From contig JAHJDH010000029.1 of NCBI GenBank assembly GCA_018812625.1, positions 1 through 39,305 of the forward strand: a stretch of DNA of 39,305 bases, read 5' to 3'. Below, one piece after another: positions 26,330 through 38,631 of the stretch. The stretch's first letter is position 1. Each line of letters starts with the position of its first letter. The notes below the pieces were generated by a model that was not told the DNA's origin, ran no database searches, and saw only the letters and a list, made by a program, of their open reading frames with translations. The stretch comes from Microcaldota archaeon. GTDB taxonomy: Archaea > Micrarchaeota > Micrarchaeia > Anstonellales > Bilamarchaeaceae. The translations under genes and the position numbers were made by a program.

Positions 26330-26830
26330 TCATTCTATTGAAAGACGTTTGATTTGAGAAAGCTCTCTTAATTTCAAAAGCGCAGGCCCAGGCAATCTTT
26401 TTTCTATTATTATAGTAAGCTTTGGATTCGGATAGATATCCGGATCATCACTTACAATTTGTCTAATGCTGATATTAGCATCTGAAATTATAGTTGTAAC
26501 TGCACTTACGATACCTATTGCATGAGGCTCTGCCTCAAGCTCTAAAACTTCAAATCCAAGGCTTTTTGCAACTCCACGAATATAAGAAGTTGGCGCTAGA
26601 GACTCGAAAATACTAAAAAGCTCTGGGATTTCGGCTATCATCTGCGAGGTTTCAAGTACTACTCTGCGATCAATTTTGAGAGCTCTTGCAATCTTTACAG
26701 GACTAACCTCAACAGCCCCAGAGTAGATGAAACCTGCCTTATCAACTCGCATCCCCTGACGAAGCAAGAGATCAGCTACTTTACTGCGCATAGGATAACG
26801 AAGAAACGCATCTTCCAGAATTGGATACAT
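26330..26830 (-). CDS. TrpY-like ACT-domain transcriptional regulator
   Basis: 166 aa from ATG 26830. In-frame ATG codons at 26839 and 26869 would add up to 13 residues, but 26839 overlaps an operator-like box and 26830 suits a leaderless start. N-terminal helix-turn-helix region at about 40-70 (VSPVKIARALKIDRRVV) and C-terminal ACT-like domain at about 100-166 (EPHAIGIVSAVTTII, then IRQIVSDDPD). This is the COG2150 architecture, shared by TrpY of Methanothermobacter, a tryptophan-responsive repressor divergent from its trp operon. Here too the gene diverges from trpE, with two TGTACA boxes between. Repression of trp genes and itself with tryptophan as co-ligand is inferred from family and position. 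Confidence 0.8.
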   Translation of the reverse strand: MYPILEDAFLRYPMRSKVADLLLRQGMRVDKAGFIYSGAVEVSPVKIARALKIDRRVVLETSQMIAEIPELFSIFESLAPTSYIRGVAKSLGFEVLELEAEPHAIGIVSAVTTIISDANISIRQIVSDDPDIYPNPKLTIIIEKRLPGPALLKLRELSQIKRLSIE

Positions 26831-26832
26831 AA

Positions 26833-26848
26833 TGTACATATTTGTACA
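26833..26848. promoter_or_regulatory. Paired TGTACA operator boxes (TRP-box-like)
   Basis: TGTACA occurs at 26833-26838 and 26843-26848, 10 bp apart on one face of the helix. It is the word reported as the TRP box bound by Methanothermobacter TrpY. The boxes lie between the regulator's start and the shared TATA at 26856. Confidence 0.7.
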
Positions 26849-26855
26849 GAAAAGC

Positions 26856-26865
26856 TTTAAATATA
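26856..26865. promoter_or_regulatory. Shared TATA-like element of trpE and its regulator
   Basis: TTTAAATATA reads as a TATA-like box on both strands. Positions about 26 bp away fall near 26887 (just before trpE ATG 26893) and near 26835 (just before the regulator ATG 26830). Confidence 0.5.
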
Positions 26866-26892
26866 TCATTAATGCTAAAAACAGTAGGTGAC

Positions 26893-30548: not shown

Positions 30549-31696
30549 AAAGATATTTTGGAAAATATGGGGGGCAGTTTGTTCCAGAAACATTAGTTCC
30601 AGCACTAGCGCATCTTGAAGAAGAGTATTGTAAGATTAAAGATGACAAATCTTTCCAGGAAAATTTGAGCAATCTCCTCTTCGACTACTGCGGAAGGCCA
30701 ACGCCATTATACCTGGCAAAAAGATTGAGCAAAAAACTTGGAGTAGGAAGAATATATCTGAAGAGAGAAGATCTTCTTCATACTGGAGCACATAAGATCA
30801 ACAATGCAATAGGACAAAGTTTGCTTGCAAAAAAAATGGGGAAAAAAAGGATAATTGCAGAAACAGGTGCAGGACAGCACGGAGTTGCAACTGCAACAGC
30901 AGCTGCGCTTTTGGGACTTGAATGCGAGATATATATGGGCAGTACTGATGCAAAGAGGCAGGAGCTCAATGTATTCAAAATGAATCTTCTTGGAACTAAA
31001 GTGAATATTGTTGAGAGTGGCTCAAAAACATTGAAAGATGCAATTAATGAGGCACTTCGTGATTATACTGCAAACTTCAAAGACACTCATTACCTGATAG
31101 GCTCTGCACTAGGCCCTCACCCCTACCCGACCATTGTGCGGGATTTCCAGTCAGTAATTGGAATCGAAGCAAAAAAACAGATTCTAGAAAAAGAAGGAAA
31201 GCTGCCAGATTGCCTTGTTGCATGTGTGGGCGGAGGCAGCAATGCCATTGGCCTGTTTTCTGCATTTTTGGATGAACCGGTTGAAATGATTGGAGTTGAA
31301 GCAGGAGGAAATGGAAAACAGCATGCAGAGAGGCTGACAGGAAAGGCAAGAGAAGGGGTGCTTCATGGAATGAAGAGTTATTTCCTTCAGGATGAAAATG
31401 GACAAATACAAAATACTTATTCTGTTTCAGCAGGTCTTGATTATGCAGGCGTGGGACCAGAACATTCAAACCTCAAGGAAATGGAACGTGCAAAGTACGT
31501 ATCGGTTAATGATCAGGAAGCTCTCAGTGCATTCAAAACACTTTCACAATACGAGGGAATAACGCCAGCTCTTGAAAGCGCTCATGCAGTTGGATATGTG
31601 ATGAAAATGGAAAAAGCAGAAGATAAAACAATTATTATCAACCTCTCTGGACGAGGGGATAAAGATGCACCACAGGTAATGGAGTTGTTAAAATGA
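30545..31696 (+). CDS. trpB: Tryptophan synthase beta chain (TrpB1)
   Basis: 383 aa PLP enzyme that joins indole and serine. PLP lysine at about 84 in HTGAHKINN; phosphate-binding [26 protein letters not shown] is the TrpB glycine-rich motif. Length and the N-terminal [12 protein letters not shown] mark the TrpB1 type that works with TrpA, which follows with an ATGA overlap. Confidence 0.97.
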
Positions 31697-32460
31697 GAGA
31701 ACTGAAAAAACCTGCATTAATGCCATATGTTTGCTGTGGGGACCCGAATGTTCAGTTTACAAAAAAACTAATCAAGGCAATGGTCGCAAATGGTGCTGAT
31801 GCAATAGAGCTTGGGATCCCATTTTCTGACCCCATGGCAGATGGAAAAACAATACAAGAGGCAATAACCAGGGCTTTGAAAGGAGGAATGACACCTGGCA
31901 AAGCACTTGAGATGCTAAAAGAACTGAGAAAAGAGGGAGTGGAAGTTCCGATCTTTATTATGACATATTACAATATTCCATTTTCCAGCGGAATTGCAAA
32001 TTTCACTAAATTGGCAAAGGAAGCTGGAGCAGACGGATTCATCATACCAGATCTACCCATAGAAGAATCAGACGAACTTAGAAGTGCATGTGATGAACAT
32101 GATCTGGTTTTAGTGCAGTTTATTACGCCTGGCTGTTCGAGTGAGAGATTGGAAAAAATTGTCAAAAATGCAAAGGGATTCCTGTATGCAGTATCTGTTC
32201 TTGGCATAACTGGAGCTCGGGATGGGATATCAGAGGATGCGATTGAACTTATCAAACGAACAAAGAAAATAACTGAACTGCCAGTTGTAATTGGTTTTGG
32301 GATTTCAAATGAGGCTCAAGCATCACAATACGTAAAAGCAGGAGCAGACGGAGTTATTATAGGAAGCAAGATAGCAAAAATATACTCCAATGAAAACAGC
32401 GTTGAAGAGGTTGCAAGATTCTGTTCAGCAGTAAAGGAAAAACTTCAGAAGAGCAAATGA
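31693..32460 (+). CDS. trpA: Tryptophan synthase alpha chain
   Basis: 255 aa TIM barrel that releases indole from indole-3-glycerol phosphate. Catalytic Glu 39 ([11 protein letters not shown]) and Asp 50 (MADGKTIQ) are present, as are the phosphate-binding GFGIS and DGVIIGS. Last gene of the trp cluster. No T-rich terminator follows its stop; the next feature, 15 bp on, is the promoter-like element of the aromatic leader region, so trp transcripts may run into the aro genes. Confidence 0.96.
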
Positions 32461-32475
32461 TGGATGTAACACTGG

Positions 32476-32491
32476 TTTAAAAATATTTATG
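32476..32491 (+). promoter_or_regulatory. TATA-like promoter of the aromatic leader and aro operon
   Basis: TTTAAAAATATTTATG at 32477-32491 is a TATA-like element just after trpA. Initiation about 26 bp downstream would fall near 32510, at or just before ATG 32512 of the leader ORF, so the leader could be read from a leaderless mRNA. Confidence 0.55.
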
Positions 32492-32511
32492 TGGTAATTT
32501 ATTGTAGAAAA

Positions 32512-32601
32512 ATGAATAATGTGGTAATGATGATCAACACTGTTGAAGCAAACAACTGGAACTATTTCTTCGGCTTCTACAGCTTTAGCTTTGATTATTA
32601 G
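32512..32601 (+). CDS. Aromatic-residue leader peptide, putative attenuator peptide
   Basis: Short ORF of 29 codons from ATG 32512 or 24 codons from ATG 32527 (GTGGTAATG just upstream), stop TAG at 32599-32601. The last 14 residues are [14 protein letters not shown]: one Trp, three Tyr and five Phe. A run of aromatic codons directly upstream of the first gene of aromatic amino-acid synthesis is the hallmark of leader peptides such as bacterial TrpL and PheL. The peptide has no other recognisable domain. It is followed by overlapping RNA hairpins and a T-tract before the DAHP synthase gene. The role in sensing all three aromatic aminoacyl-tRNAs is inferred. Confidence 0.72.
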
Positions 32602-32628
32602 AAAAACCGCAAAGCTTTTTTTCTTCTT
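32587..32628 (+). terminator. Attenuator terminator: hairpin plus T-tract
   Basis: AGCTTTG (32587-32593) pairs with CAAAGCT (32610-32616), 7 bp with a 16-nt loop holding the leader stop codon. The stem runs directly into seven T (32616-32622), then CTTCTT. Oligo-U alone can terminate archaeal RNA polymerase; the stem adds a bacterial-like arrangement. Confidence 0.6.
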
Positions 32629-32638
32629 GTGGGTTTTC
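32601..32638 (+). promoter_or_regulatory. Alternative (antiterminator-like) hairpin
   Basis: GAAAAACCGCAA (32601-32612) can pair with TTGTGGGTTTTC (32627-32638): ten Watson-Crick pairs, one G-U and one mismatch, with the T-tract in its loop. It shares 32610-32612 with the terminator stem, so the two structures exclude each other. Confidence 0.5.
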
Positions 32639-32681
32639 TGATGCAAAACATATTAGTAATATTAATGGAAAGGTGTTATGG

Positions 32682-33500
32682 ATGAAAAATTTGAAATTGG
32701 CTGCCATCTCTGGCAGTAGAAGAACAACCGTTCGGGTTGGAAACGTTAAAGTAGGCTCAGGATTTACTGTAATTGCTGGACCTTGCGGGGTAGAGAGCGA
32801 GGCTCAAACACTCGAAACAGCACATGCAGTAAAGGCAGCTGGAGCAGATATGCTTCGAGGAGGAGCATTCAAACCACGAACTTCGCCATATGCTTTCCAG
32901 GGACTTGGACTTCAGGGACTCAAAATACTTGACAAGGCAAAAGAAGAAACAGGATTGCCCATTGTAACTGAGGTCATTGATCCACGGGATGTTTCATGGG
33001 TATGCGAATATGCAGATGTACTCCAGATCGGAGCAAGAAACATGCAAAACTTCTCACTGCTTCGTGAGGTCGGAAAATCAAACAAGGCAGTTCTTCTGAA
33101 AAGAGGTATGCACTCTACGATCGAGGAATGGCTAAATTGCGCAGAGTATATACTAAACGAAGGAAACCCAGATGTAATACTCTGTGAAAGAGGAATCAGG
33201 ACTTTTGAGAAATACACTAGAAATACTCTTGATATCAGTGCGGTTCCAGCAGTAAAAGAACTCACACATCTTCCAATTATTACAGATCCAACTCATGCAA
33301 CTGGAAGACTTAGCTTGATTCCATCAATGAGCCTTGCTTCAATTGCAGCAGGAGCTGATGGAATGATTGTTGAAGTGCATAGAAACCCAGCAGAAGCTCT
33401 TAGTGACAAAGACCAGGCCATGACTCCGCCCATGTTCATGGAATTGATGGCTAAAGTCAGAAAACTTGAGAAGATAATGAAAGCTGAGGGACTTAGATGA
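32682..33500 (+). CDS. aroF: 3-deoxy-7-phosphoheptulonate (DAHP) synthase, type I-beta
   Basis: 272 aa from ATG 32682 (AAAGGTG 6 nt upstream). Condenses phosphoenolpyruvate and erythrose 4-phosphate, the first step of the shikimate pathway. Motifs: [39 protein letters not shown], and [10 protein letters not shown] with metal-binding His. Only about 25 residues precede the catalytic barrel and there is no ferredoxin-like or chorismate-mutase extension, so the allosteric domain found in regulated I-beta enzymes is absent. Control at the RNA level by the upstream leader would fit that. First gene of the aro operon; overlaps aroB as ATGA. The gene letter varies between naming systems. Confidence 0.95.
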
Positions 33501-34501
33501 AAATGAATATTGGAAACTGTGAGGTGCTTCTTGATTACCCAATTGCAAATCTGGAAAAATTAATTGGGGAGAAAAGAGCGGTAATCATCACAGATTCCAA
33601 TGTACGAAAATATCACGAAAACAAATTCCCAAAGGCTCCTGTAATAGAAATTGGCCAGGGTGAAGAGATAAAAACTCTGAAAACTCTTGAGCAAATTTAT
33701 GAAAAAATGCTCAATCTTGAGCTTGATAGAGCATCTGTAGTAATTGGAATCGGAGGCGGAATTGTCTGTGATATTGCAGGGTTTGTAGCATCAACATATT
33801 GCAGAGGCATGAAACTGATACTCGTTCCAACAACTCTCCTTGCTCAGGTAGATGCAGGAATTGGTGGAAAGAACGGAGTAAATTTCAAAGGATACAAGAA
33901 TATTATTGGAACCTTCAGGCAGCCTGATGCGGTTCTGGTTGATACAAGCTTGCTTGAAACTCTTGATCTGGAGGAGATGAAATGCGGATATGCAGAAGTA
34001 GTAAAACATGCTGCAATTGCAGATGAAAAGGCATTTGAAAATTTAGAGAATTGTGATGATTTGTTTTCAGTTTCCAATTTGAAGGACATTGTTCCGAAGT
34101 GTGCTGCTGTAAAAGTCAATGTTGTTATTGCAGATGAACATGAACATGGAGAGAGGATGAAGCTTAATTTTGGACATACAATAGGCCATGCAGTGGAAAA
34201 AATCCTAAAGCTTCCACATGGACAAGCAGTTGCAATTGGAATGGTTGCTGAGGGAAAAATTGCAGTTCAAAGGGGACTGTTAGGTGAAAAGGAAATGTCA
34301 AGACTTGAAAATTTGCTTGAAAAAATAGGACTTGGAACAAAGGCAAAGATGGATGCAAAGGAAGTTGTTGATGCTATTCGCCACGATAAAAAAAGAAGAG
34401 ATGAAAGCCTGAAGATGCCGCTACTTTGTGGGATTGGGAATGCAAAAATTGTCGAAGTTTCTCTAGAGGAGATGGAGAGGGTCATTAATGATTTGTACTA
34501 G
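33497..34501 (+). CDS. aroB: 3-dehydroquinate synthase
   Basis: 334 aa NAD- and metal-dependent enzyme converting DAHP to 3-dehydroquinate. NAD-binding [16 protein letters not shown], the segment [21 protein letters not shown] (here by its ends LVPTTLL and GGKNGVN), and metal-ligand motifs [10 protein letters not shown] and [10 protein letters not shown] are all intact. This is the bacterial-type route through DAHP. Many euryarchaea instead use the aldol-based AroA'/AroB' pathway, so the presence of DAHP synthase plus canonical AroB is notable. Overlaps aroD by 14 bp. Confidence 0.96.
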
Positions 34502-35123
34502 CATTGCAGAGGAAGGACTAGAAGCTTGTTTGAAGGCCCTAGACTCATTAGAATTTGCAGAGGTTAGACTTGACAAGACAAAATTAAGTGAAAAAGAAGT
34601 AGTGCAGATATTTTCAACTTCAAAAAAACTAATTGCCACTTATAGAGAAGGAGATGAACAAGAGATACGAGAGAAAACATTGATGCTGGCAATAGATTCT
34701 GGAGCTTCAATGGTTGATATTGAATTGGAATCAACAGAAGAATATAGAAAAAAGATAATTGCAAAGGCCAGGGAAAAGAACTGTGAAGTAATAATTTCAT
34801 ACCATAATTATGAACAAACGCCATCAAGAAATGAGCTTGAAAAAATAATCGAACAATGTTTTGAGAAGGGAGCAGATATTGCAAAAATTGCGTGTAAAGT
34901 AAATTCTGAGAAAGATAATGCAAGGCTTCTTGGGCTTCTTGACTGTGAGAAGAAACTGGTAGTTATTGGAATGGGAAGGCTTGGCAGAGTGACCCGTATT
35001 TTAGGCCCTCTTCTTGGAAGTAAATTTACATTTGCATCAGCTGGTACTGGAAAGGAAACTGCAGAAGGGCAATTGAGCAAAAAGGAAATGGAAGAAATTC
35101 TGGAGGTTTTGAAAAATGACTGA
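34488..35123 (+). CDS. aroD: 3-dehydroquinate dehydratase, type I
   Basis: 211 aa class I (Schiff-base) dehydratase. EVRLDKT at the first strand, ATYREGDE, the catalytic His in IISYHNYEQTP and the Schiff-base Lys in IAKIACKV are visible. Slightly shorter than bacterial AroD (~250 aa), as in other archaea. The start lies inside the end of aroB, and the end overlaps aroE/K by 8 bp. Confidence 0.95.
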   Translation: MICTSIAEEGLEACLKALDSLEFAEVRLDKTKLSEKEVVQIFSTSKKLIATYREGDEQEIREKTLMLAIDSGASMVDIELESTEEYRKKIIAKAREKNCEVIISYHNYEQTPSRNELEKIIEQCFEKGADIAKIACKVNSEKDNARLLGLLDCEKKLVVIGMGRLGRVTRILGPLLGSKFTFASAGTGKETAEGQLSKKEMEEILEVLKND

Positions 35124-36441
35124 AGAGCCGGCAGAATTGTTTGCAGTAATTGGAAAACCAGTTCTCCACAGCAAAAGCCCTCAGATGCACAATGCAGCAA
35201 TCAAAGAATTGGGATTGCATGCCCATTATATTAGACTGGCAGCAGACAGTCCAAAAGAGGCACTGGAAACGGCAAGATTAGCTGGAATTACTGGAATGAG
35301 CATCACAGCACCATTCAAGAACATAATTGGGTATGTCGACGAAGTAGACCCAATTGCAGAAAAAATCAAGGCAGTAAACACAGTAGTGATAACGCCTGAG
35401 AAAACAATTGGATATAATACAGATGCACATGGAGTTGCTCATTCGATCATTGCAAAAGGAGTAGAGATTAAAGGAAAAAAAGTAGTCGTGCTTGGGGCAG
35501 GAGGAGCTTCCAAAGCAGCAATAGTTGCAATGATTGAGCACGGAGCAAAAGTTACTGTCGCAAACAGAACAGTTGAAAAGGCAAAAGAATTAGCACAAGA
35601 ATTTGGCATCTCTTATTCATCACTAGATCCAGAAGAACTGAAGAAAGCTCTTGAGAAGTGCAGTATTATCATCGGATGTCTTAGCACCGGAGAGAGAGTA
35701 GTTCCAAAAGATTTGCTAAAGCCAGAAATGGCAATTTTTGATGCATATTATTCGGTTGAATCTTATCTAGTAAAAGATGGAAAAGAAGCTGGATGCAAAA
35801 TGATTGATGCAGGAGACTGGTTGGTTTACCAGGGACTGGTTGCATTTGAACTATTTACAGGGAAAAAAGCACCTGAGAAGACAATGAGGGATGCTGTAAA
35901 CAGTGCACAGTTAAGCCAAGGACAAAGAAACATTTCACTTGTTGGATTTATGGGAAGTGGAAAGGATACAATAGCAAAGGAGATTTCTGGCAAAACTGAA
36001 CAGGTAATTTTTGACATTGATAGAGAGATTGAGAATATCGCAGGTAAACCAATCAAGGAGATTTTTGAAACAGATGGAGAGGAGGAATTCCGTATTCTTG
36101 AGAGCAGAGTTTTATCGGATATAAAAAATCAGAAAAATATAATTGTTAATTGTGGCGGAGGAGTAATAATGAGAAAGAAAAATCGAAAGCTCCTCAAAGA
36201 AAATTCTCTTGTAGTCTGGCTATGGGCAAGTCCAAAAACGATTCTGGAGAGAGTACCAAAAGATGGATCTCGCCCGCTGCTAGAAGTAGAGAACCCAATA
36301 CGGATTATTGAAAAGCTTCTTGGAACAAGAAAATGCCAATATGCAGAAGTATCAGACATGATGATTAACACGGATGGAAAAAGTCCAAAAGAAATCTCAG
36401 AGAGGATAATCTATGAAATCAATAAAACCTTCAAAAATTAA
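35116..36441 (+). CDS. aroE-aroK: Shikimate dehydrogenase-shikimate kinase fusion
   Basis: 441 aa with two enzymes in one chain. AroE part about 1-268: shikimate-binding HSKSPQMHN, catalytic Lys 68 (TAPFK) and Asp 103 (NTDAHG), NADP loop GAGGAS at 127-132. AroK part about 272-441: P-loop GFMGSGKDT at 277-285, DIDREIENIAG, GGG at 347-349 and the LID-like KDGSRPLL. The kinase is the bacterial P-loop family, not the GHMP-type shikimate kinase usual in archaea. In Walker A the residue after Lys is Asp 284, with Thr next, instead of the usual Ser/Thr. The join follows pathway order (steps 4 and 5). Overlaps aroA by 29 bp. Confidence 0.95.
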   Translation: MTEEPAELFAVIGKPVLHSKSPQMHNAAIKELGLHAHYIRLAADSPKEALETARLAGITGMSITAPFKNIIGYVDEVDPIAEKIKAVNTVVITPEKTIGYNTDAHGVAHSIIAKGVEIKGKKVVVLGAGGASKAAIVAMIEHGAKVTVANRTVEKAKELAQEFGISYSSLDPEELKKALEKCSIIIGCLSTGERVVPKDLLKPEMAIFDAYYSVESYLVKDGKEAGCKMIDAGDWLVYQGLVAFELFTGKKAPEKTMRDAVNSAQLSQGQRNISLVGFMGSGKDTIAKEISGKTEQVIFDIDREIENIAGKPIKEIFETDGEEEFRILESRVLSDIKNQKNIIVNCGGGVIMRKKNRKLLKENSLVVWLWASPKTILERVPKDGSRPLLEVENPIRIIEKLLGTRKCQYAEVSDMMINTDGKSPKEISERIIYEINKTFKN

Positions 36442-37657
36442 TGGTAGAATTCTTGCTCCGCCTTCAAAGAGCATGATGCAGCGTGCCTTGATTGCAGCAA
36501 TGCTTGCAGAAGATGAATCAGTAATTACTAATCCAAGTTTTTGTAGTGATTCAGAAGCTACCATCGGAGTAATTGGAACTCTTGGAGCAAAAGTTGAATA
36601 TAATGAGAAAAAGATTACTATCCAGGGGGGAGGAATGCCGCTTGGAGATATACTTGATTGCGGAGAATCCGGAACGTGTTTGAGGATTATTTCGATAATA
36701 GCAGGACTCTATGATAATGAGATAACTGTAACAGGACACGGCTCTTTGAAAAGCAGGCCCATGCATATGATTGAAGAGGTATTATTTGAAGCTGGAGTTG
36801 TATGCAAAACAGCTGATGGTAAGCTGCCTCTGACAATAAAGGGACCTATGATTGGGGGCGAAATGGAAGTTGATGGATCAGAAAGTTCGCAGCATATTAG
36901 TGGACTTTTAATGGCACTTCCCCTGTGCACTGAAGACTCAAAACTGAATGTGAAAAATCTCAAGAGCAAGCCGTATGTGAAGATGACTATTGAGCTTCTT
37001 AGAGACTTTGGCGTTCGGATCAATGCAGATAATAATCTTGAGAAAATTGAAATCAAAGGAAAGCAAAGGTACAAGTCAAGAAGATATAATATCGAAGGAG
37101 ATTGGTCGGGAGTATCATTTTTGCTAGTTGCAGGAGCAATTGCAGGTGAAGCGAGAATACGCGGACTAAACATGAAATCATCTCAGGCAGACATTGCAAT
37201 ATTGAAAGCTTTGAAAAAAGCTGGTGCTATAGTTCGAGAAAACCAGGATTCGGCAATTGTTGAGAAAAATGAACTTATTGCATTTGAATTTGACGCAACA
37301 GACTGTCCTGATCTCTTTCCCCCACTTGCAGTACTTGCATGTAATTGTAAGGGAAAAAGTATAATCACTGGAACAGAAAGACTCAAGCACAAAGAAAGCG
37401 ACAGGGCAGCTGTTCTGGTTGAAGAGTTATCTGCTATCGGGGCAAATATTAAAGTTGAAGGAAATCAAATGATAATAGAGGGAAATAAATTGAAAGGAGG
37501 AACAATCAATTCACATAACGATCATCGAATTGCTATGGCAGGAGCAATTGCAGCTTTAACATGCAAAGGCCAAGTTGAGATTACAGATGAAGAATGCATA
37601 TCAAAATCATATCCAAAATTCTTTGATGATTTGGAGAATATGAAGGTGAGAGAATGA
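36413..37657 (+). CDS. aroA: 5-enolpyruvylshikimate-3-phosphate synthase
   Basis: 414 aa, two inverted domains. Condenses shikimate 3-phosphate with phosphoenolpyruvate. Motifs: APPSKSMMQRALIAA, DCGESGTCLRI, SRPMHMIEE, SSQHISGLLMALP, ERLKHKESDR, HNDHRIAMA. Length is typical. The 29-bp overlap with aroE/K is longer than other overlaps in the operon; its start at ATG 36413 preserves the conserved N-terminus, so the overlap is real. Overlaps aroC by 4 bp. Confidence 0.96.
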   Translation: MKSIKPSKINGRILAPPSKSMMQRALIAAMLAEDESVITNPSFCSDSEATIGVIGTLGAKVEYNEKKITIQGGGMPLGDILDCGESGTCLRIISIIAGLYDNEITVTGHGSLKSRPMHMIEEVLFEAGVVCKTADGKLPLTIKGPMIGGEMEVDGSESSQHISGLLMALPLCTEDSKLNVKNLKSKPYVKMTIELLRDFGVRINADNNLEKIEIKGKQRYKSRRYNIEGDWSGVSFLLVAGAIAGEARIRGLNMKSSQADIAILKALKKAGAIVRENQDSAIVEKNELIAFEFDATDCPDLFPPLAVLACNCKGKSIITGTERLKHKESDRAAVLVEELSAIGANIKVEGNQMIIEGNKLKGGTINSHNDHRIAMAGAIAALTCKGQVEITDEECISKSYPKFFDDLENMKVRE

Positions 37658-38631
37658 ATATTTTTGGAAAGATGTTTAGAGTAAGTATTTACGGAGAATC
37701 TCACGGCAAGGAAGTTGGAATAGTAATTGACGGATGCCCAAGTGGACAGAAGATATCAGACAACGATTTCAAAGTAGATCTTGATCGAAGAAAAAGCGGC
37801 GCACTTGGAACAACTACAAGAAAAGAACCAGATATTCCGATTATCAAAAGCGGCATATGGAATGGAATGAGTACAGGTTCTCCAATTTGCATAGCATTCG
37901 AGAACAAAGATGTAAAATCCAAAGATTATTCTAGTATTAAAGATACCCCAAGACCAGGACATGCAGATTTTGTAGCTTTTCAAAAAAGCAATGGATTTAA
38001 TGATTACCGAGGTGGGGGACATTTTTCCGGCAGACTTACTGCTCCTCTTGTCGCAGCTGGAGTAATTGCAAAAAAGATCATTGGAAAAATAAAAGTTGAG
38101 GCAAAACTAATTGAAGTCTCTGGATCTGATGATTTTGAAAAGGAAATAAGCAAAGCAGTCAAAGATGAAGATTCAGTAGGTGGAATTATAGAATGCAGAA
38201 TAAGCAATGTTCCAGTAGGGCTTGGAGAACCATTCTTTGATTCAATTGAATCAGAATTATCTCATGCAATATTTTCGATTCCTGGAATCAAGGGAATTGA
38301 ATTCGGAGCAGGTTTTGATGGGACAAAAATAAGAGGAAGCGTTTTCAACGACGAAATAATTGATGATAGTGGAAAAACAGATACAAATAATTCTGGTGGA
38401 ATAAACGGCGGGATCACAAATGGAAATGAGATTGTATTTAGAGTAGCTGTAAGGCCAACTGCCAGCATAAAAAAACCACTTAGAACAATAGATTTGCAAA
38501 GTGGAAAAATGAAAAAAATAAGTACTGAGGGAAGGCATGATGCATGTATTGCAGTTCGAGTGCCAGTTGTGGTAGAAGCTACTGCTGCGATTGTACTAGC
38601 AGATATGATAATTAGAAAAAATTCGAGGTGA
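37654..38631 (+). CDS. aroC: Chorismate synthase
   Basis: 325 aa. FMN-dependent enzyme forming chorismate. Signatures: YGESHGKEVGIVIDGCP, RRKSGALGTTTRKEPD, RPGHADF, GGGHFSGRLTAP, and the late GRHDACIAVR and RPTASIKK. Somewhat shorter than typical (~360 aa), the loss being in surface loops. Last common-pathway enzyme; its product feeds both trpE and pheA in this window. Confidence 0.96.
   Translation: MNIFGKMFRVSIYGESHGKEVGIVIDGCPSGQKISDNDFKVDLDRRKSGALGTTTRKEPDIPIIKSGIWNGMSTGSPICIAFENKDVKSKDYSSIKDTPRPGHADFVAFQKSNGFNDYRGGGHFSGRLTAPLVAAGVIAKKIIGKIKVEAKLIEVSGSDDFEKEISKAVKDEDSVGGIIECRISNVPVGLGEPFFDSIESELSHAIFSIPGIKGIEFGAGFDGTKIRGSVFNDEIIDDSGKTDTNNSGGINGGITNGNEIVFRVAVRPTASIKKPLRTIDLQSGKMKKISTEGRHDACIAVRVPVVVEATAAIVLADMIIRKNSR

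Follow-up and report, generated by a model that had tools for sequence, protein, structure and literature searches.

The trpA–DAHP synthase gap and its leader ORF

The window analysed here is a stretch of 39,305 nt (contig JAHJDH010000029.1) from a 1.27-Mb Micrarchaeota MAG, and the archaeal host proposed in the initial annotation was confirmed. Its region 32476–32681 is the gap between trpA (31693–32460) and a DAHP synthase gene (32682–33500) that is followed by the remaining genes of an aro operon. All features listed by that annotation were found in place on re-inspection of the window. The elements ahead of the operon and its genes are the following:

32476–32485, + strand: TATA-like promoter element TTTAAAAATA of the leader/aro operon, about 51 nt 5' of the leader ATG
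32521–32525, + strand: Shine-Dalgarno-like GTGGT of the leader ORF, which doubles as segment 1 and is able to pair with segment 2
32527–32601, + strand: putative leader peptide ORF, start at 32527 or 32530 (aromatic-rich leader ORFs at 34 loci)
32682–33500, + strand: DAHP synthase, consisting of the type I-beta catalytic domain alone and acting at the first step of the pathway (PF00793, 268 bits; NF006421 and TIGR01361 over cut-off)
33497–38631, + strand: remaining operon of overlapping ORFs (aroB-like, aroD, aroE-aroK fusion, aroA, aroC)
33497–34501, + strand: aroB-like ORF, named from its own sequence only
34488–35123, 35116–36441, 36413–37657 and 37654–38631, + strand: ORFs of the aro operon supported by Pfam

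The short ORF terminates at a TAG codon (32599–32601), and its last 14 residues hold one tryptophan, three tyrosines and five phenylalanines, the same nine aromatic residues that had been counted initially. The ORF itself is upheld by the comparison with relatives, which places its start at the ATG of 32527 or 32530 behind GTGGT and not at an upstream GTG codon, giving a peptide of 23–24 amino acids. A GTGGT or GTGAT sequence lies a few nucleotides 5' of the ATG in most group-1 leaders. Comparison further shows a promoter-like TATA element ahead of the leader: a 7/8 match to TTTATAAA occurs at positions −66 to −36 in 16 of 34 leaders (1.6 expected), with a cluster at −57 to −44.

With the DAHP synthase as query, loci were gathered at genus, family, order and phylum level, and about 32 DAHP synthase loci from several families of the class carry an aromatic-rich short ORF; in most close relatives the aromatic run ends this upstream ORF. 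The initial annotation had proposed related genomes as the check on its reading, and the leader ORF is indeed kept in them across families of the class. Examples are the leaders of L007 (MTIARSRWQNFFYYFSFSYRYQENHK), L014 (MEKAKANRFNGFFRYFSFGYFYW), L023 (MERAKPKTINYFYYSRFFWFSFFYYYFRFFWF) and L080 (MTEVKANQQNWSFGFSFGYFG), each followed by its stop codon, of which the last two retain the aromatic property despite having little sequence in common. Altogether 34 leaders were counted, 32 preceding a DAHP synthase and the rest preceding an ADTH synthase (two loci).

Comparison of these 34 leaders shows that the ORF is selected for Trp, Tyr and Phe codons, as had been suggested, with aromatic codons making up 46% of the last 16 codons versus 14.6 ± 1.2% in base-shuffled sequences. 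The excess holds for the eight codons lying outside the pairing arm described below (52% versus 18%), and the other reading frames contain 5–11% aromatics, the +2 frame being full of stops. Phenylalanine is present in all 34 leaders, tyrosine in 33 and tryptophan in 28, which supports the earlier proposal that the mixed codons serve joint sensing of the three amino acids. Taken with the structures described below, the ORF very probably belongs to a leader-peptide sensor.

Distribution of the leader and its link to the pathway

Under one fixed criterion, the leader ORF was detected before 25 of 52 Micrarchaeota DAHP synthases versus 1 of 46 trpE/hisG genes (p 9e-8). The trpE (25 loci) and hisG (21 loci) upstream regions from the same order revealed no convincing tryptophan or histidine leader, and no convincing leader of the aromatic kind was seen at 29 Thermoplasmatota loci with related DAHP synthases. 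A 179-aa ORF without a Pfam match (26330–26869, − strand) is located divergently from trpE in the window. In Methanothermobacter the trp regulator TrpY is also encoded divergently from trpE, and by this analogy the window ORF may be the trp regulator, which would suit the lack of a trp leader.

DAHP synthases without a leader include that of the close relative L008 (G030), a natural loss in which the enzyme is kept, and most of those in the distant group, families f20 and f21. Where the leader is present, the distance from its stop codon to the gene ranges from 72 to about 468 nt, the leader and its hairpin persisting throughout. Searched against Rfam, the window and 19 related loci matched only tRNAs and none of the leader, T-box or riboswitch families. 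One DAHP synthase on an acidobacterial MAG contig (L039) falls inside the Micrarchaeota clade of the tree, which points either to gene transfer out of archaea or to mis-binning of the contig.

A covariance model built from 16 leaders and run over 301 Micrarchaeota genomes matched DAHP synthase loci and also the ADTH operon of G090 (E 9e-5), a genome that lacks this DAHP synthase; the weak matches, on examination, were mostly unrelated coding sequence. The G090 leader (MRNAKVCISGNSFFFSFSYY, then stop) precedes genes for aspartokinase, aspartate-semialdehyde dehydrogenase, ADTH synthase (TIGR01949 over cut-off) and DHQ synthase II, with an apparent chorismate, Phe and Tyr operon further on, and in G175 the leader MEIAKASLRSCRSASYFSSFSYGSY, again ending at a stop, lies before the ADTH synthase gene. 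ADTH synthase belongs to the alternative archaeal entry into aromatic synthesis, and with these two loci the element is tied to the pathway, at its first committed steps, and not to one gene.

The leader-headed operon of G090 (L125, complement of 394–11657 on contig C33) is an apparently complete aromatic operon of the aspartate-semialdehyde/ADTH route, and it contains EPSP synthase-chorismate synthase and shikimate dehydrogenase-kinase fusions. The ADTH synthase ORF of G175 (L156, 7677–8811) has an apparent aspartate-semialdehyde dehydrogenase tail, which may reflect a fusion, a leftover fragment or an error in the sequence.

The tree of DAHP synthases, in which deep branches are weakly supported, places leaders on several separate lineages, both with and without an N-terminal extension. 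Together with the ADTH route, this distribution makes it appear that the leader outlasted replacements of the first enzyme or was recruited more than once. The argument that control by a leader is needed because the DAHP synthase lacks an allosteric domain does not hold in general, since several leaders precede enzymes with a regulatory-domain-like N-terminal extension.

RNA pairings and the U-rich tract

The leader RNA contains two hairpins whose arms recur across loci, and a third, more tentative pairing between segments 1 and 2. Their elements in the window are as follows:

32529–32549, + strand: P1 5' arms GATGATCAA (32529–32537) and GTTGAAGC (32542–32549), from the window fold, partner swaps and pair counts
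32582–32599, + strand: P1 3' arms within the aromatic codons, GCTTTAGC (32582–32589) and TTGATTATT (32591–32599)
32600–32612, + strand: segment 2, stop-codon arm of hairpin 2:3, AGAAAAACCGCAA, from partner swaps
32613–32626, + strand: pyrimidine/U-rich loop tract AGCTTTTTTTCTTC, proposed termination signal, from loop composition
32627–32639, + strand: segment 3, distal arm of hairpin 2:3, TTGTGGGTTTTCT

Hairpin P1, which was absent from the initial annotation, brings the opening codons of the leader together with its aromatic end through 17 bp (32529–32537 with 32591–32599 and 32542–32549 with 32582–32589). When partners were swapped between genomes, none of 1000 swaps was as good as the native pairs (z −6.7 overall, −5.8 in group 1 taken by itself and −2.4 at the 11 distant loci), and the comparison thus shows P1 to be a conserved structure. 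The conserved AGCTTYRGCTAT sequence, the corresponding S-F-[GS]-Y motif and their codon bias are explained by their position in a P1 arm. Reading S-F-[GS]-Y as an arrest peptide was rejected, as the fixed AGC/GGC codons and the P1 pairing with the leader start offer a simpler account.

Hairpin 2:3 joins an arm at the stop codon to an arm 16–46 nt further on. In the window, GAAAAACCGCAA (32601–32612) pairs with TTGTGGGTTTTC (32627–32638) at 11 of 12 positions, and the stem reaches further outward through AGAAA (32600–32604) and TTTCT (32635–32639). This second hairpin, described earlier as holding the T-tract in its loop, is present and co-varies across genomes: its partner swap gave z −7.6 overall and −7.0 in group 1 alone, with 0 of 1000 swaps as good in both cases, and z −2.4 at the 11 distant loci, while unrelated segment pairs used as controls had a mean z of −0.3 (sd 1.1) with extremes to −3.0. 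Since leader lengths vary, a plain MAFFT/RNAalifold consensus of the leaders revealed little structure, and counts over named structures were used instead; these gave 83% of cells paired versus 38–51% in slid registers, and a covariation of 0.299 versus 0.195 in shuffled sequences (0/500). Loop and arm statistics were taken from the alignment, because automated hairpin picking misassigned one subclade, whose arm 2 is located within the final leader codons. Pairing 1:2, between the ribosome-binding site of the leader and the stop-codon arm, would exclude 2:3. Its overall swap score was z −3.2, with controls reaching −3.0, the distant group gave no significant score, and the named-structure test gave 3–5 of 500, so that its conservation is only suggestive.

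Folded as a single sequence, the window RNA is unexceptional (z −0.97), and the evidence for structure therefore rests on comparison. The free window RNA, folded from 32503, prefers 1:2 together with P1. Among 16 leaders, hairpin 2:3 forms in most free RNAs (mean 0.70). Modelling a ribosome on the codon that opens the aromatic run leaves it mostly formed (mean 0.74), while one placed at the stop codon removes it in all 16. As 2:3 is favoured in free RNA, the off state would have to come from kinetic trapping or from a ribosome that occupies the stop codon.

The initial annotation had assigned the terminator to a shorter hairpin, in which AGCTTTG (32587–32593) pairs with CAAAGCT (32610–32616) and runs into seven T. 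This 7-bp hairpin exists in the window, but its terminator role was not supported, with −6.0 kcal/mol for the native pairs versus −5.6 for swapped ones and 231 of 2000 swaps as good. The swap test gave no sign of conservation for this stem, AGCTTTRGCTAT being one P1 arm instead, and since the stem is unconserved, a stalled ribosome covering the 5' arm of a terminator is not the conserved logic of the element. No canonical intrinsic terminator, that is, no common stem abutting a free U-run, was identified between leader and gene across the loci. What comparison does show is a pyrimidine-rich loop: pyrimidines make up 65% of the RNA between arms 2 and 3 but 36% of that beyond the hairpin (p 3e-21), and in the window the loop includes the T7. 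Given the lack of a canonical terminator, we infer that termination takes place at this U-rich tract.

Stretches of poly(U) cause termination by archaeal RNA polymerase (PMC8116511), and the factor FttA/aCPSF1 terminates on unstructured U-rich RNA about 30–36 nt behind the RNA 3' end (PMC11616081). A median of 19 nt separates the end of the U-rich window from that of arm 3, which means that arm 3 would be just emerging when the tract reaches −30 to −36. Hairpin 2:3 and FttA could therefore compete for the tract, a point of consistency between the geometry and the known action of the factor. The FttA gene is over its family cut-off in the genome of the window and in 15 of 17 genus genomes searched.

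Proposed mechanism, rival explanations and known systems

We consider it likely that the element is a translation-coupled attenuator whose leader peptide monitors Trp, Tyr and Phe jointly and governs the entry step of the aromatic pathway in Micrarchaeota in the following manner. With aromatic amino acids in good supply, the ribosome would reach the stop codon and mask arm 2, blocking 2:3; the U/C-rich tract would then stay single-stranded, and transcription would be ended at this site, with FttA/aCPSF1 as the most likely factor. A shortage of any one of the three would make the ribosome stall earlier on the aromatic codons, leaving arm 2 free to form 2:3, which would lock the tract in the loop and permit read-through. 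If the leader is untranslated, P1 and possibly 1:2 would fold the leader and its ribosome-binding site. Transcription is the probable output, and for the sign of the response we lean, with less assurance, towards 2:3 as the read-through form.

Arm 3 carries its own U run and can be read as part of a terminator, by which the sign would reverse. Hairpin 2:3 itself, with its A-tract, GC core and U-run (GAAAACCGC...GTGGUUUUC), would then terminate transcription; a ribosome stalled at the final aromatic codons would mask arm 2 and cause read-through, and released ribosomes would let 2:3 form, the sensing being the same and the role of 2:3 opposite. The proximity of arm 2 to the last aromatic codons fits this arrangement, as do several loci in which stems such as AACCAC/GTGGTT run into T4–T5. 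However, the core stem is short and its loop long, and the U-run in arm 3 is itself base-paired to the A-run in arm 2. In addition, arm 2 is hidden equally well by a modelled ribosome on the stop codon, the conserved pyrimidine tract of the loop is left unexplained, and bacterial relatives of the DAHP synthase have ordinary terminators after their leaders; we regard this arrangement as unlikely, though deserving some weight.

An effect on the translation or stability of the DAHP synthase message, through coupling or exposure of its ribosome-binding site, is a weaker candidate still. It draws on the closeness of the hairpin to the gene start in L024, but the ribosome-binding site of the gene lies outside the hairpin in most loci, and leader and hairpin persist over the whole range of stop-to-gene distances. 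That the UUY/UAY run arose by chance or composition, or that a conserved non-coding RNA merely reads as aromatics through its pairing, seems very improbable: although the AGCTTYRGCTAT portion of the motif serves as an arm in pairing and the single-sequence fold score is low, the aromatic excess extends outside the P1 arm and is confined to one frame, the criterion picked out a single control region among 46, and L023 and L080 keep the property with little shared sequence.

Leader-peptide attenuation is a textbook bacterial mechanism. The preferred reading, an attenuator acting through the loop tract, shares with the E. coli trpL, hisL and pheL type a short ORF with end-product codons before a biosynthetic operon and an RNA structure overlapping the ORF end; as in canonical attenuators, the ORF is conserved, and a conserved hairpin has an arm that a stop-codon ribosome covers in our models. 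It differs from the bacterial systems in having no intrinsic terminator stem with a U-run, the tract lying instead in the loop of the stop-codon hairpin, as well as in its archaeal promoter, its presumed FttA/U-tract termination and its sensing of three amino acids at the common pathway. As it lacks an intrinsic terminator, we regard it as a variant of the leader-peptide attenuator outside the canonical class.

Homologous DAHP synthases of spirochaetes, deltaproteobacteria and acidobacteria (L050, L054, L056, L060 and L063) are also preceded by an aromatic-rich short ORF, which is followed, unlike at the archaeal loci, by a conventional GC stem-loop that leads into a run of T; these are canonical aromatic leaders with terminators. 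No S-F-[GS]-Y/P1 motif was seen in these five, and L050, L054, L056 and L060 had no match to Rfam leader families at the gathering threshold.

Rho-dependent leader control of the tnaC type depends on the ribosome at or near the leader stop, which decides the access of the factor to the nascent RNA. The archaeal leader would share this role of the stop-codon ribosome, with FttA as the proposed factor in place of Rho; the sign and the codons differ, and the archaeal leader has no sign of a ligand-sensing nascent peptide. Promoter-proximal termination linked to FttA/aCPSF1 is described in Saccharolobus, where premature termination is likewise a regulatory step, but a general one without a tie to leader peptides (PMC8448881). 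According to the same 2021 paper, neither transcription attenuation nor antitermination had a known example among archaea (PMC8448881), and we found no later report of archaeal attenuation in the open-access literature. We give about even chances to the full proposition that this is an archaeal transcription attenuator, apparently the first described, in which the ribosome on an aromatic leader gates termination by the CPSF73-like FttA through a U-rich signal hidden in a loop, and that the element was retained through replacement of the first enzyme across DAHP synthase lineages and the ADTH route.

If true, this would mean that transcription and translation are coupled tightly enough in these archaea for sensing at the level of codons, and that attenuator logic is possible without an intrinsic terminator. 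The leader would also offer a natural substrate for testing the mutual exclusion of ribosome and FttA, and it would be one of the few regulatory elements inferred for the DPANN archaea, nearly all of which are uncultured.
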